Of a stretch of 64,000 nucleotides of DNA, positions 3,001-25,881 are shown piece after piece (the stretch's first letter is position 1; every line of letters starts with the position of its first letter). A program made the position numbers and the translations under genes. Origin of the DNA: a virus; IMG/VR virus record IMGVR_UViG_3300023184_000090, positions 1 through 64,000 of that record, one strand, 5' to 3'. The notes beneath the pieces were generated by a model. It was not told the origin of the DNA and ran no database searches. It worked only from the letters and a program-made list of their open reading frames with translations.

Positions 3001-5533
3001 TGGCTATGACCCAACAACCACGGCCAAGATCAAGGGAAACTTCTACGGGCTGGCTGGTCGGGTACAGCTTGTTGACAGGCTTGCCGCAGCGGACGCGGCC
3101 ATTGTGGCCGCAGAAGGCGCAGACAAACTGACTTCTGTTGAAGCGTTTCAGGCGCAGTACTTCATGCGCATGGCAGACAAAGTGACCCAAGCGGCGGGGC
3201 AGTTCGTTACTAGCGGCCCGGTTCGGATTGTGGCCGACAAGCGCACTACCGGGACAGAGTACCGCTATGAGTCTGTTGAGGGGGCCAATCTGCTTCGTGT
3301 GAGCGAACACCTGGAGCAAGCCACCAAAGCCAGCGGACGCAGTGCGGACGACATAGAGCGCATGTTCACGGTGTTGAGCGCGGGCGCAAGAGCAGATGCG
3401 TTGCCCAACGGCTGGATTCGTTTGAACACTGGGGACGCTAAAGCCGCCAAGGCTGAGTACGATGCGGACAAGGCGTATCTAAACGCCAACCCCAAAGTCA
3501 AACAGTATATGGATGCGGCAGCAGCGGAGTATCGCCAATACAACGCAGGTCTTTTGGACTTTGCCGCGCAGTGCGATTTCCTGACGCCTGAAGAAGCCAC
3601 TCGTTTGAAGCGCGTGCCCTATGCTCCGTACTACCGCGTTGAAGATGGCGTGGTCAAGCTGTTCGTGGAAGACGAGCGTCCTATCAAGATTGGCAACATC
3701 AAGGACAACCCAGACTTGCAACGCATGATTGGGGACAATACCAAGATCATGCCAATTCTTACCAGTGCGGTGCAGAACACGTACATGCTGACCCGCGCTG
3801 CCCTGGACAACAAGGCCGCATACGAGACATCTAACGCCATGTACAAGGCAGGGTTTGCGTCCAAGTACGGCCCCGGTCAAGGCCCAGCCAACGCCGACAC
3901 TGTGCACTTCAAAGTCAAAGGCAAGCCATACTTTGCAACGATTGATTCGGATACGTTTGGTATCCCAGCGCACTTGATCGTCAAGGGCATGGAAGGCATT
4001 AAGACTACGCTGCCACAGCTTGTGCAGATGCTGGGCGTGCCTGCTGACATCTTGCGCAAGTTCATTACCCGTTCTCCCGCATACGCTGTGCGGCAGATTA
4101 TTCGAGACCCTATCAACGCGGCTTTGCTGTCGGGTACTGACGGCGTGCCTGTGCTCAACGCGATTCGGCAGTTGGCCAAGATGCGCAATGGGCAGAACAC
4201 GACCCAGGACGAGCTTATGCGCGGTCTGGTTGTCAGTAGCAACGTCTACACGGGCAACGAGAAAGACATGGAGAAGTTCTTGCAGGACATCCAGTCTGGC
4301 AAAGGCAAGTGGACAAAAATGATGGGGGTGATTGACAGCGCGGCTTTGCAGGCGGACGTTGCCACCAGGGCGCTGGTGTATGAGTCGGCCCTGCGGCGCG
4401 GGTTGTCCAAGGCCCAGGCGCAGTTTGTGGCAATGGAGTCTCAGAACTTTGGGCGCAGGGGGTTGTCGCCTAGCATGCAGATGCTGTCCACGATGGTTCC
4501 GTTTTTTAACGCCCAGATTCAGGGCTTGGATGTGCTGTACCGCACCCTGCGTGGCAAGATGCCGTTTGCCCAGCAGATGGAAATTCAACGCAAACTGAAG
4601 GCCCGTGCCATGATGCTAATGACAGGCGCTATGGCCTACGCCCTCATGATGCAAGACGACGAGGCCTACAAGAAGGCTACGCCAGAAGAACGCTACGGCA
4701 ACTTCTTTGTGTACATCCCTGGCGTAAAAGACCCGCTGAGAATCCCCATTCCCTACGAGATTGGCGTGTTGTTCATGGCCATTCCACAGGCCATAGTGGA
4801 TGTGGCAATCCGCGACACAAAGGCAGCGGAAGCGATCAAGGGTATCGGCAAGCTGTTGTGGCAGTCCGCGCCTGGAGTCGTGCCTGTGGGCGCAAAGCCT
4901 TGGCTGGAAGCGTACTACGGTCAGACAGCGTTTGGGCCGATAGAGAACCAACGCGAGAAGATGCTTGCGGCAGGGGAGCGCTACCGCCCAGGCACTACCG
5001 AAGTGGCCAAGGCTTTGGGGTCGTTTACTGGGGTTGTGGGTGTGTCGCCGCTGATGCTGGAACACTTTGTAAAAAGCTACACCAGCATGCTGGGGATTTC
5101 CGCGTTGCATATGCTTGACCCTGTGTTTGCAACGGGCGTTGGTGGGGAGAAGGCATCTATCCCCGCAAGCAAACAGCCGTTTGTTGGCGGCTTGTTCCAC
5201 TCAGCCGAAGGTCGGTTCTTGATTGACCGCGCCTACGAACGTATGGATGACATTGTGCAGGCGTCAAACACTTACGAAGGTTTGATGAACAAAGGGCAGA
5301 GGGCTGAAGCCAAGGCGTTTGCCCAACGCCAGAGCAATCTAATAGCCATGAAAGACGAGGCCGGGGCGTTCAGGCAAGAGATGGGAACGCTGTTCACCGA
5401 AGAACGCTCTATCCACGACAACCCCCGGTTGACTACGGCTCAGAAGGACGAGCGTTTGGATCGCTTGAAGCGCTTTGAGAATAAGAGGGCGGAACAGTTT
5501 TATAAACAATCCGAAAGAACCACACGCCAGTAA
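2..5533 (+). CDS. Giant polyvalent virion-associated protein with HExxH peptidase motif (5'-partial)
   Basis: The reading frame is open from the first bases, so the true start lies outside the window; 1843 codons are visible. The first ~800 residues are charged, Ala/Glu/Lys-rich and predicted coiled coil. A zinc-peptidase motif HETTH lies at about residues 867-871, with a possible third ligand Glu near 924 (FVSE). A segment around residues 1355-1390 (RSPAYAVRQIIRDPINAAL) resembles the LPD38-type domain of large polyvalent phage proteins. Hydrophobic stretches near 1535 and 1585-1604 could be membrane-interacting. Proteins of this family are packaged in the virion and thought to be injected with DNA; that role is inferred here. 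The gene converges on the leftward replication operon. Peptidase activity is not proven. Confidence 0.75.
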   Translation: MQARLDKTFEEQTRAKEKLDALEKRQRAYGQQQDVITGAAPGQREADRLKAGAGYRTVAGKVRTKPTKKASWGIESVPKTKEVKPSEVAKAAAEMARAANLVKAAERLAKPTTVEVSDEITELRRQYAEANKVAEGYLFGDVRRAGIVVEGAVRERTRLAGLIAESIKRVPVTPSVVVEAQKKLDMLSSAVRTLDPSANGTFAPEKTVDVMLEMERLQNELGEYVYRGGKLTEQQLSGAAAAEATANLIKLKGADTPAALIRTAKNYEAAVSQVDYQLTQLRKSLDKIKDEFDRVAKNEETVNGEPAKKAPAVVEAKLAELIEKATPIDAAHTKAVALYKVARRDLLMFQYEMGKGVRQQYADAVAALQAETERQAKDPALAAVAKRNEANAAVLAQLQERLAKAQVNFEKARAKERATPEPDTRTAEQKAEDERQDRLEQLLKAPSAELAALPGTRIEVDTTGQLAQAVQNNAKRMLGLSQAALEKAVAENDVAAVQKATADVQRYEKELAQALPAGERVKTVVGEEAAAGPPGTQPVVAGTRLGARKVGPLVRQAQRPPGQMLTGSGLDVKQGSQNPPRQAGAVRLRSYDLSPEAANAISLATLNKQVRAAEGDRKAELQAQYKLQTEGLTKEQIAERLAEGKRLIGSDESMALIAQRENLRQATADLNKARTELNAAEAAAEKAGTKNSPAVLVAQDAFDQASDTVEMLENRISRMREAEQASKQARRTGANAEQEADNAVEEDVDKNAPVTRAQKAVGDVYFDEGDAAPTQYKTALGTQLSDRAIEEINDGSLIYALNDVAKNGATPLLRENAAKVAQFVRQTKVQVVSSITINGKQYPAAYDPATNTVLLTQAGMTQEDLVHETTHAATMRVIEMPEKDLTPLQRQAKRELQAMLQAIKRDSKFEGEYATADLKEFVSEAQSNDDLRTKMEQKPWFRGNMFTRFIRRILNLIGFDTQELMTTRAQELIETIYMPSRSIQGVGRSAAAARPTSVIVGYDPTTTAKIKGNFYGLAGRVQLVDRLAAADAAIVAAEGADKLTSVEAFQAQYFMRMADKVTQAAGQFVTSGPVRIVADKRTTGTEYRYESVEGANLLRVSEHLEQATKASGRSADDIERMFTVLSAGARADALPNGWIRLNTGDAKAAKAEYDADKAYLNANPKVKQYMDAAAAEYRQYNAGLLDFAAQCDFLTPEEATRLKRVPYAPYYRVEDGVVKLFVEDERPIKIGNIKDNPDLQRMIGDNTKIMPILTSAVQNTYMLTRAALDNKAAYETSNAMYKAGFASKYGPGQGPANADTVHFKVKGKPYFATIDSDTFGIPAHLIVKGMEGIKTTLPQLVQMLGVPADILRKFITRSPAYAVRQIIRDPINAALLSGTDGVPVLNAIRQLAKMRNGQNTTQDELMRGLVVSSNVYTGNEKDMEKFLQDIQSGKGKWTKMMGVIDSAALQADVATRALVYESALRRGLSKAQAQFVAMESQNFGRRGLSPSMQMLSTMVPFFNAQIQGLDVLYRTLRGKMPFAQQMEIQRKLKARAMMLMTGAMAYALMMQDDEAYKKATPEERYGNFFVYIPGVKDPLRIPIPYEIGVLFMAIPQAIVDVAIRDTKAAEAIKGIGKLLWQSAPGVVPVGAKPWLEAYYGQTAFGPIENQREKMLAAGERYRPGTTEVAKALGSFTGVVGVSPLMLEHFVKSYTSMLGISALHMLDPVFATGVGGEKASIPASKQPFVGGLFHSAEGRFLIDRAYERMDDIVQASNTYEGLMNKGQRAEAKAFAQRQSNLIAMKDEAGAFRQEMGTLFTEERSIHDNPRLTTAQKDERLDRLKRFENKRAEQFYKQSERTTRQ

Positions 5534-23553: not shown

Positions 23554-23747
23554 TCAAAATTACACTCAAAATTACAAGAAAATTACGAGCCAAGCGCTTA
23601 GAATGTTGTTGTCGCTGTTAGTGTTTTTGTTCAATATTACAATATTACATAATTACATTAAGAAAGTATATATAAGAGAATGAAGTATATGCACTCATCG
23701 TATATAGTCTTTCTGGGGGTTTGTAATTTTGTAATGTGTAATATTGG
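23442..23747. repeat. AT-rich iteron cluster with large imperfect inverted repeat; candidate replication origin
   Basis: AAAATTAC(A/G) occurs at 23443, 23556, 23568 and 23579 (last three 11-12 bases apart). Then ATATTACA/AATTACA copies fill 23632-23658, and inverted copies (TGTAATTT, TGTAAT, TGTAATATTG) fill 23722-23746. Between the two clusters lie GAAAGTATATATA (23662-23674) and its inverted partner TATATAGTCTTTC (23701-23713). The stretch after 23554 has no credible gene. Direct iterons, inverted symmetry and a TATATA core next to a helicase gene are typical of origins; the function is inferred. Confidence 0.6.
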
Positions 23748-23763: not shown

Positions 23764-23870
23764 TCCAACACGGCTGGGGATTGCTCGGTTCGATTCCGAG
23801 GGGACGGGGGAAACACAAACGGCTCAATACCGCCCTATCCTGTTCTGGTCAAGTCCCCATCCGTGTTGGT
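23764..23870 (+). ncRNA. Multi-branch structured element containing a tRNA T-arm-like hairpin
   Basis: Outer stem: CCAACACGG (23765-23773) pairs with CCGTGTTGG (23861-23869), extended inward by TGGGGA/TCCCCA and TTG/CAA. Inside are a 5-bp stem with the loop TTCGATT (23784-23800), exactly a tRNA T-arm, and a second stem GGGACGG/CCGCCCT (23801-23807 with 23830-23836, one mismatch). No acceptor or anticodon arm completes a tRNA. It lies ~160 bases upstream of the terminase small subunit, so it may be a packaging site, an RNA regulator or a processed non-coding RNA. The type 'ncRNA' is provisional. Confidence 0.4.
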
Positions 23871-23896
23871 GTAGTGCGATAGACAAAGGCCGCTTA

Positions 23897-23914
23897 CCGT
23901 TGGGTTCGCAACGG
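23897..23914 (+). promoter_or_regulatory. Hairpin in the leader of the terminase operon
   Basis: CCGTTG pairs with CAACGG around the loop GGTTCG (6 bp). It lies between the multi-branch element and the terminase small subunit start at 24027. Could be part of the same structured leader or a packaging recognition site. Confidence 0.35.
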
Positions 23915-24026
23915 CGCACGGGAGAATGGACAGCCCATGAAATCCAAACCCCACCAACAACCATCACGCATGCGTACTGGGCTAACAAAGTCAAGTGGTG
24001 GTGTACAATCCGTCAAAGAGGTGCAT

Positions 24027-24476
24027 ATGGTAGCGAAACGCGGCCCGGGGCAACCCACAAAGTACAGACCAGAATATTGCGAGCTCGTTATCGAGCTTGG
24101 TGACAAAGGCTATAGTCGTGAGATGATAGCCGTTGAGCTGAATGTGTCTTGGAACACGTTGCTGAACTGGATGGATGCGAATCCAGATTTCCTTGAGGCC
24201 TTGGAATTTGCAAAGATGCGTGAGATGGTGTATTTCGAGAAGCTAGGGCTCGCGTACATGGTCGAGCAGCCGCAGCAATCGAAGCTAAACACATCGCTCT
24301 GGTCACGGTCGATGGCCGCTCGATTCCCAACTAAATATCGCGAAAATTCTAAATTCGAAGTCACTGGTAAAGACGACAAGCCCATTCAGATCGATGTTGT
24401 TCATGACTTTGCACAAGAGCTTATGAACGACTTGCTGACTATCAGGCAAGACGGTGCCAAGTCCGACAATAGCTGA
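24027..24476 (+). CDS. terS: Terminase small subunit
   Basis: 149 aa from MVAKRGPGQPTKYRPEYCE, with AAGAGGTG just upstream; an earlier in-frame ATG at 23937 has no ribosome site and would run through the leader. RGPGQPTKY followed by an HTH (GYSREMIAVELNVSWNTLLNWM) is the common small-terminase form, which recognises the packaging site in phage DNA and presents it to the large subunit. The gene overlaps the large subunit start by 23 bases. The structured element directly upstream may be its target. Confidence 0.85.
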   Translation: MVAKRGPGQPTKYRPEYCELVIELGDKGYSREMIAVELNVSWNTLLNWMDANPDFLEALEFAKMREMVYFEKLGLAYMVEQPQQSKLNTSLWSRSMAARFPTKYRENSKFEVTGKDDKPIQIDVVHDFAQELMNDLLTIRQDGAKSDNS

Positions 24477-25881
24477 ACAGTTTGCGCAACGAATACAAGT
24501 TGCGACTAACTTAAAGCATGCCACTCCGGAATGGCAAGCCGCGATCAAAGCGCGTCTTAAGTGGCTCTCAATAGCAAGCAATCATCAAATCACGCCTAAG
24601 GGCGATTGGTGGAGCATCTGGCTCTTGCTTGCTGGTCGTGGCGCTGGCAAGACGAGGTGCGCGGCTGAATGGACGTGGTGGGAAGCGTGGACGAAGCCTA
24701 AGACTCGTTGGCTTGTATCAGCCCCTACATCCGGTGACGTTCGTGATGTGTGCTATGAAGGCGACTCAGGCTTGATGAGCGTGTTACCTTCGGTATTAAT
24801 CGACAACTACAACAAGTCACAGCATGAGATCACATTGGTCAATGGGTCGATCATCAAAGGCATTGCCGCGTCTGAGCCAGAGCGCTTTCGAGGCCCACAG
24901 TTTCACGGTGGCTGGCTTGACGAACTGGCGGCTTGGCACTACCTTGATGACGCATGGAACATGCTGCAATTCGGCATGCGACTTGGCAAGAAGCCTCGTA
25001 TACTCTGTACCACGACACCGAAGCCAAAGCCATTGATCGTCGACTTGGCGAACCGTGACGGCGATGACGTGATCTACACATCAGCATCGACGTATGACAA
25101 CATGCACAACTTGGCGCCAAGCTTCAAGGCACAGATCCTTCAGTACGAAGGCACCAAACTCGGACGCCAAGAGATCTATGCCGAGATCATCGACCCTGAG
25201 GAATCAGGCATCATCAAGCGCGACTGGTTCAAGCTGTGGTCAAATGAGAAGCCACTGCCACAGTTTGACTACGTCGTTCAGTCATATGACTGTGCCACAA
25301 GCGACAAAACAGCCAACGACCCAACCGCATGCACCGTGTGGGGCGTGTTCAAGCCTAGTGCTGACAAGTCGGCGTCTGTGATGCTGATCGATTGCTGGGA
25401 GGAGTACATACAGTACCCTGACCTACGGAAACGAGTCATCGAAGAGTCAACATCGATATACGGCGACGAGAATGAGTTTGGGCACGGTAAGAAAGTCGAC
25501 CTTATACTGATCGAGGACAAGTCGGCAGGCATCAGCTTACTGCAGGATTTGCAACGAGCCGGGCTTCCTGTTCGTGGCTACAACCCAGGGAATGCTGACA
25601 AGATGACCAGGCTCAACCTAGTCGCACCGATCATCCAGCGAGGCAAGGTCTATGTGCCTGAATCCTCGAAGAACGAGGGGTGCGCTAGAACGTGGGCCGA
25701 GGCGCTGATCAGTCAGGTTTGTGCGTTTCCTGAAGTTCGGCATGACGACCTAACCGACTCGATGTCACAAGCCTTGCGTATTTTGCGTGACATGGGGCTC
25801 ATCAACATCGATCCAGTGTATGATCCCAACGACTCGTATGACGAGGATCGTCCAGTAAGGGTGAACCCATATGCCGTTTAA
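24454..25881 (+). CDS. terL: Terminase large subunit (ATPase-nuclease)
   Basis: 475 aa. ATPase: Walker A LLAGRGAGKT near residues 58-67 and Walker B WLDELAAW near 153-160, with the TTTPKP coupling motif near 187. Nuclease (RNase H fold): first Asp in SYDCATSD near 276, second acid in LIEDKSAG near 350-357, third in HDDLTDS near 430. It pumps DNA into the procapsid and cuts concatemers. All catalytic residues appear intact. Resembles the Terminase_6 group. Confidence 0.95.
   Translation: MPSPTIAEQFAQRIQVATNLKHATPEWQAAIKARLKWLSIASNHQITPKGDWWSIWLLLAGRGAGKTRCAAEWTWWEAWTKPKTRWLVSAPTSGDVRDVCYEGDSGLMSVLPSVLIDNYNKSQHEITLVNGSIIKGIAASEPERFRGPQFHGGWLDELAAWHYLDDAWNMLQFGMRLGKKPRILCTTTPKPKPLIVDLANRDGDDVIYTSASTYDNMHNLAPSFKAQILQYEGTKLGRQEIYAEIIDPEESGIIKRDWFKLWSNEKPLPQFDYVVQSYDCATSDKTANDPTACTVWGVFKPSADKSASVMLIDCWEEYIQYPDLRKRVIEESTSIYGDENEFGHGKKVDLILIEDKSAGISLLQDLQRAGLPVRGYNPGNADKMTRLNLVAPIIQRGKVYVPESSKNEGCARTWAEALISQVCAFPEVRHDDLTDSMSQALRILRDMGLINIDPVYDPNDSYDEDRPVRVNPYAV

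Follow-up and report, generated by a model that had tools for sequence, protein, structure and literature searches.

The element between the primase and terminase genes

The window, by which we mean the whole stretch of DNA analysed (64,000 nucleotides, part of a 75-kb virus record), contains a structured element flanked upstream by a DNA primase gene and downstream by genes for the small and large terminase subunits. Its parts and immediate neighbours are listed here, with B denoting the first hairpin, and A the second module, of a frame that recurs in other viral contigs.

~23764-23972: whole element (B hairpin, A unit and the stump of a second B)
23765..23869, + strand: B hairpin, outer stem CCAACACGGCTGGGGATTG / CAAGTCCCCATCCGTGTTGG around the T-arm CTCGGTTCGATTCCGAG and a GGGACGGGGGAAACACAAACGG...CCGCCCTATCC domain
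23784..23800, + strand: perfect T-arm CTCGG-TTCGATT-CCGAG, kept in L125, L260 and L293 and shortened in L107
23861..23871, + strand: segment common to B and A, CCGTGTTGGTG, which can close B or pair with CACCAAC, both fully being impossible
23865..23958, + strand: tRNA-like A unit, closed by GTTGGTG (23865-23871) / CACCAAC (23952-23958)
23959..23972, + strand: AACCATCACGCATG, the opening 14 nt of the 5' arm of the B that would follow, matching the A-to-B junctions of intact arrays
23972..23998, + strand: remnant AYWANKVKW of an 83-aa open reading frame (tblastn; L003 sequence)
24027..24476, + strand: terminase small subunit (TerS), start chosen by homology to relatives, a longer ATG start at 23937 lying inside the array
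24454..25881, + strand: terminase large subunit (TerL)

The original prediction had placed a compact, multi-branched element at 23764-23914, and every stem it named (closing stem, T-arm, second stem and 6-bp hairpin) is present at the position claimed. The closing stem of B is composed of CCAACACGG/CCGTGTTGG (9 bp), TGGGGA/TCCCCA (6 bp) and TTG/CAA (3 bp), interrupted by one C.T mismatch and one bulged G, and its arms were recovered independently as 23765-23780 / 23854-23869 at 94%. The second stem inside B, GGGACGG/CCGCCCT, includes one A.C mismatch, and RNAfold favours a shifted pairing. The folding check attached to the prediction also came out in its favour, in that the 113 nt from 23764 to 23876 fold with better energy than 199 of 200 dinucleotide shuffles (z -3.18), with a smaller excess when flanking sequence is included (z -1.5 and -1.3); because these wider stretches fold less exceptionally, the case made here rests on comparison with relatives and not on energy.

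The predicted extent was too short, and took in only half of the element, as a second unit runs to 23958. The 6-bp hairpin at 23897 is present (23897-23914), but instead of being a separate follower it forms the interior of this A unit, as the inner hairpin CCGTTG-GGTTCG-CAACGG within a D-arm-like stem, GTGCG/CGCAC. An acceptor arm had been said to be missing; the A closing stem is acceptor-like, with a 3' strand that lies beyond the coordinates first considered. The A unit has no anticodon arm, does not encode CCA, and is not called by ARAGORN. A reading of the element as a tRNA was rejected, since neither ARAGORN nor the Rfam tRNA model called a cloverleaf with an anticodon arm, and no tRNA, tmRNA or other family was assigned to the element by ARAGORN or Rfam, bearing out the earlier view that this is not an ordinary tRNA.

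The B hairpin of the window is unusual in its 5' arm, CACGGCTGGGG, which exactly matches the 3' arm as usually found, read in reverse complement, whereas the usual 5' arm is CACGCATGGGG. Because of this substitution the window B stem is longer, and GTTGG is contested between it and the closing stem of A; in the minimum-free-energy fold of the whole element B is closed and the A closing stem is open.

Behind the A unit a second B hairpin begins, of which recombination has removed all but the first 14 nt. Directly after this junction persist the last nine codons of an open reading frame that in six relatives (L001, L002, L003, L005, L006 and L007) occupies the place of the element, just upstream of TerS (in L003 at 3297-3545, MIKRGSETFSGYNVPKRTPG...AYWANKVKW, an 83-aa conserved product). 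Relatives without the element have a TerS more than 75% identical to that of the window, and L020, a more distant relative, has at this site an element with other contents, the only examined terminase relative with an array there. By these comparisons the window element is an insertion that replaced the 83-aa open reading frame of close relatives.

The nearest terminase relatives also have in common, at ~78-83% identity, an intergenic palindrome at 23605-23746. It is long and imperfect, is built of TTAC-type repeats, lies behind the primase gene, and has been retained by most of the terminase relatives that were seen. Its repeat is ATTACAATATTACA in the window and GTAACAGAGTAACAGTAGGTAAC or TTACAAAGTTACATAATTAC elsewhere, both arms changing together, which makes the palindrome a candidate replication origin with co-evolving binding sites.

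Arrays of B and A units in viral contigs

In viral contigs, at least 120 stretches contain CCCCANCCGTGTTGGTG, the 3' arm of the outer stem, and nearly all of the viral matches listed present one frame, in which ACACGCATGGGGATTG is followed by an interior that varies, then by CAGTCCCCAGCCGTGTTGGTG, by another module of variable sequence and by CACCAACAAC, often continuing into the next ACACGCATGGGG. The partner arm accompanies 114 of the 125 viral arm matches listed, and in 104 the following CACCAAC is found as well. As a control, a 17-mer of the 3' arm was sought in 84,980 bacterial and archaeal genomes (257 billion bases), where it occurs in 31 stretches, approximately the number expected by chance, and the partner arm was present in none of 32 matches. 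Mechanical parsing of the arrays returns the order B-A-B-A, with four as the largest number of B units; the arms of B and the closing stem of A together recur as arrays in more than 100 viral contigs, usually between replication and terminase genes, and the frame is much better conserved than the interiors of the units.

The window has the B arms ...CACG..TGGGGATTG / CA.TCCCCA.CCGTGTTGG in the correct order, the GTTGGTG/CACCAAC unit immediately behind them, the beginning of a new B after that, and stems in its A unit that covary among relatives. An exact pattern for its own form of B had no matches, looser patterns found relatives of the B interior, and blastn of the whole element against phages and plasmids returned nothing beyond tRNA fragments and chance matches. 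We regard it as very nearly certain that the window element is one B-A pair, with the stump of the next B, from a family of modular phage RNA arrays.

Units of this family pass between viruses like cassettes. When the interiors of 153 distinct units were grouped at 80% identity, 99 B and 116 A clusters resulted, and nearly every cluster seen more than once is joined to at least two clusters of the other kind (37 of 38 for B, 18 of 21 for A). The window provides a direct instance: 98 nt of its A unit (23865-23962) are identical to L247:4000-4097(-), in an otherwise different viral contig of 55 kb in which both of the B hairpins beside the identical unit differ from the B of the window. In turn, the T-arm domain of the window B recurs with standard arms in L107, L125 and L260.

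Two further loci touch on the limits of the units. At L293 5165-5255 the interior of the window B is closed by quite another stem and lies apart from the arrays seen, and from this copy it may be a self-contained RNA domain. At L172 1186-1322 a B hairpin begins directly at the encoded ACCA end of a tRNA-Thr gene, and therefore a real tRNA can stand in for an A unit.

The family extends to enterobacterial phages and prophages. One further A type, situated behind a shared enterobacterial B hairpin, is identified here as STnc100 (RF02076), the gammaproteobacterial prophage sRNA; its matches to the model are sub-threshold, 34-41 bits where the cut-off is 47. The STnc100-like unit has matches in 4,676 of 5,426 E. 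coli genomes. A second A type, whose B hairpin differs in sequence and follows the same plan, is matched by itself or by this B neighbour in 168 phage records and in 1,034 of the 5,426 E. coli genomes, and in the cases examined lies between the antiterminator gene Q and holin in coliphages, or among tRNA genes. Coliphage Bas77 of the BASEL collection also gave a match. In two E. coli prophage sequences (L296 and L297, 1128-1331) an STnc100-type unit lies directly between the DicF sRNA and dicB, and may take part in their processing.

Covariation and genomic setting

Covariation in the A type of the window was measured over 12 distinct sequences, in which 95.3% of pair cells are paired and 28 cells have changed on both sides, against 10.3 in shuffles; the covariation score is 0.275, compared with 0.127 for shuffled alignments and at most 0.086 for slid structures. 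The support lies in the D-like stem and its inner hairpin (helices 2 and 3 only), the 3' hairpins being weakly supported and the closing stem hardly varying within the type. The second A type (26 distinct sequences, AATGCGCAGGCTGATGCGC...GCCGGAGATCAGCACCGGC) covaries in both its D-stem and its T-stem. A D-loop base and a T-loop base of this type combine as G-C in 16 cases, G-U in five, A-U in five and A-C in none, and the probability of all five A falling on U by chance is 0.004, relatedness ignored; covariation between the two loops is thus of the kind expected if they kiss. G-U pairs are tolerated throughout the stems of A units, and a DNA site would not select for such pairs. Since the stems covary with G-U pairs, selection acts on RNA, and the outcome that had been named as fatal to the original prediction, no covariation among homologues, was not observed. 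Its suggestion of a tRNA-mimic RNA came close; it is the whole element that belongs to a family of tRNA-shaped units with covarying stems.

About half of 40 sampled flanking genes (a sample in which long open reading frames were favoured) encode terminase subunits of several unrelated families, and the remainder include primase, RusA, head proteins, helicase and ParB. In 60 of 78 loci the array shares its strand with the nearest downstream open reading frame of at least 150 aa, and most arrays are situated near where the late genes begin, often beside tRNA genes. Behind two of them, at L110 8490-8670 and L247 3720-3900 (-), there is a similar, separate, gene-like stretch with a promoter-like TTGACA...ATAGAAT and a strong AAGCCGTTAAGTCAGA...TCTGTCTTAACGGCTTTTTTG terminator, which looks like an independent sRNA gene.

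Several functions could be considered for such arrays, and those other than the one we prefer are taken here from the best surviving to the weakest. The tRNA-like frame might be no more than a site of cleavage by which the late mRNA, the tRNAs and the small RNAs of one long transcript are parted, the interiors being filler. Units located between dicF and dicB, between Q and holin, and among tRNA genes speak for it, as does a frame far more conserved than its interiors. Filler, however, would not be expected to covary or to stay intact across viruses over as many as 98 identical nt, and arrays of three or four units exceed what punctuation needs; we consider this the strongest of the alternatives and nonetheless unlikely.

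The arrays might instead act in cis as a leader of the late operon, either by controlling how terminase is translated or as an RNA antiterminator, of which the put RNAs of phage HK022 are an example. The original prediction included a leader regulating terminase, and here the position in the window fits, as do arrays that precede TerS or that follow either primase or Q with a terminator; the other positions of the family, behind TerL and head genes and inside tRNA clusters, do not, nor do hypervariable interiors that are completely different between phages. Close relatives of the window virus also manage without the element, and a cis-acting leader seems to us improbable.

More doubtful again is that the units are selfish cassettes for insertion or recombination, folded to the benefit of their own propagation and not of the phage, in the manner of folded integron attC sites. 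Strong shuffling, patchy presence and the junction with unrelated sequence in the window speak for such cassettes, but no integrase gene was found among the neighbouring genes tested, and ordinary homologous recombination at the conserved arms can explain the exchange.

A packaging signal, whether a DNA or RNA cos/pac site or a pRNA-like motor RNA, had been suggested on the basis of position, and many arrays do adjoin terminase genes of several families, but we think it very improbable given that close relatives with a TerS more than 75% identical lack the element at the same place, that units also occur away from terminase or behind it, between Q and holin and among tRNA genes, and that G-U pairs and loop kissing indicate an RNA and not a DNA site.

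Proposed function and relation to known RNAs

Starting from what the comparisons establish (the frame, the B-A alternation, the exchange, the constraint at the RNA level and the viral specificity) and from the transcription of one relative, STnc100, we propose as a whole explanation, to be held tentatively even though we prefer it to the alternatives above, that these are arrays of tRNA-shaped RNAs that are processed and whose variable cores act in trans on the host or on rivals. The array would be transcribed together with late genes or tRNAs and cut at its tRNA-like units by host tRNA-processing enzymes, releasing small, stable, tRNA-shaped RNAs in which a hypervariable core takes the place of the anticodon domain. 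Such cores could act on targets of the host or of rival phages, for example by diverting tRNA-directed defences as decoys or by working as pairing RNAs, while homologous recombination at the short conserved junctions would shuffle the cassettes. Some observations sit poorly with this trans-acting explanation: no target or partner protein was found, CCA is not encoded by the units, a late-gene position is unexpected for an anti-defence RNA needed early, the window A closing stem competes with that of B and is left open in the minimum-free-energy fold, and covariation in the A type of the window is confined to helices 2 and 3.

More broadly, and somewhat more guardedly, the arrays could represent an unrecognised phage system of exchangeable, tRNA-framed RNA cassettes with hypervariable cores, found in phages of many bacteria, from environmental viruses to coliphages, and forming a rapidly evolving arsenal of RNAs directed at rival phages or the defences of the host, in which STnc100 is the one known cassette. 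A fixed frame around a hypervariable, freely swapped core is what would be expected of an arms race or of target switching, here in RNA. Phage genomes are annotated for proteins and tRNAs, and this family sits unannotated in the gaps; we found no description of B-A arrays in the open-access literature, and the units of the window are in no Rfam family. STnc100 (in Rfam) and tRNA-like phage RNAs are already known, and an array with exchangeable cassettes may merit a class of its own.

Several known RNAs resemble parts of the element. The best Rfam match, a weak one, was RAGATH-36 (RF03104), in which a T-arm precedes ggggcgg...ccgccu, an arrangement seen within the B hairpin too; the element scores 15 bits (E = 1.2) where the cut-off is 70, and is not a member. 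The B hairpin is also reminiscent of a permuted (two-piece) tmRNA in having the T-arm first, an acceptor-like stem and a D-like strand, all closed by a long P2-like stem, and permuted tmRNA is present in aquatic phages too (PMC9004378). We rejected a permuted tRNA or tmRNA for the window, where there is no tmRNA match, no recognised tag frame and no G3-U70, and where the same outer stem encloses unrelated interiors elsewhere. Separately, an E. coli plasmid (L238 1626-1731) has a weak permuted tmRNA match of 22.8 bits (cut-off 47) near a region of tRNA genes and an array.

GOLLD and ROOL are large, ornate phage RNAs. The arrays resemble them as large structured phage RNAs near tRNA genes, but gave no match to them in Rfam among the arrays scanned, and are built from repeated, interchangeable units. 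To tRNAs and the tRNA clusters of phages (RF00005) the units are linked by an acceptor-like stem, a T-arm and D-arm features, and by the frequent proximity of arrays to real tRNA genes. Some A units of other arrays even reach the Rfam tRNA cut-off (35-41 bits), none being called by ARAGORN, whereas the unit of the window differs from a tRNA in the features given above.

The closest known system is STnc100. No match to RF02076 was obtained in the window stretch at E <= 10, and of the STnc100 fold the A unit of the window has the closing stem and the D-like arm, with a T-like hairpin that lacks covariation support. STnc100 follows the A-unit plan, with a 7-bp closing stem with GGUG/CACC, a D-arm-like hairpin and a T-arm-like hairpin right before the 3' strand, and in enterobacterial arrays the B hairpin that precedes it also precedes other A types. 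Its transcripts were detected by RNA-seq and in one Northern blot (PMC5331693), and also in vesicles (PMC12370729), and PasD is related to it (PMC13192938). In the accessible text of these three reports (PMC13192938, PMC12370729, PMC5331693) STnc100 is described as a single sRNA, and the B hairpin, the array and the shuffling were not found there. Placed among the arrays, this much-listed RNA can be assigned to a family, with a fold and a genomic logic of its own, and its function becomes testable in prophages of laboratory E. coli.
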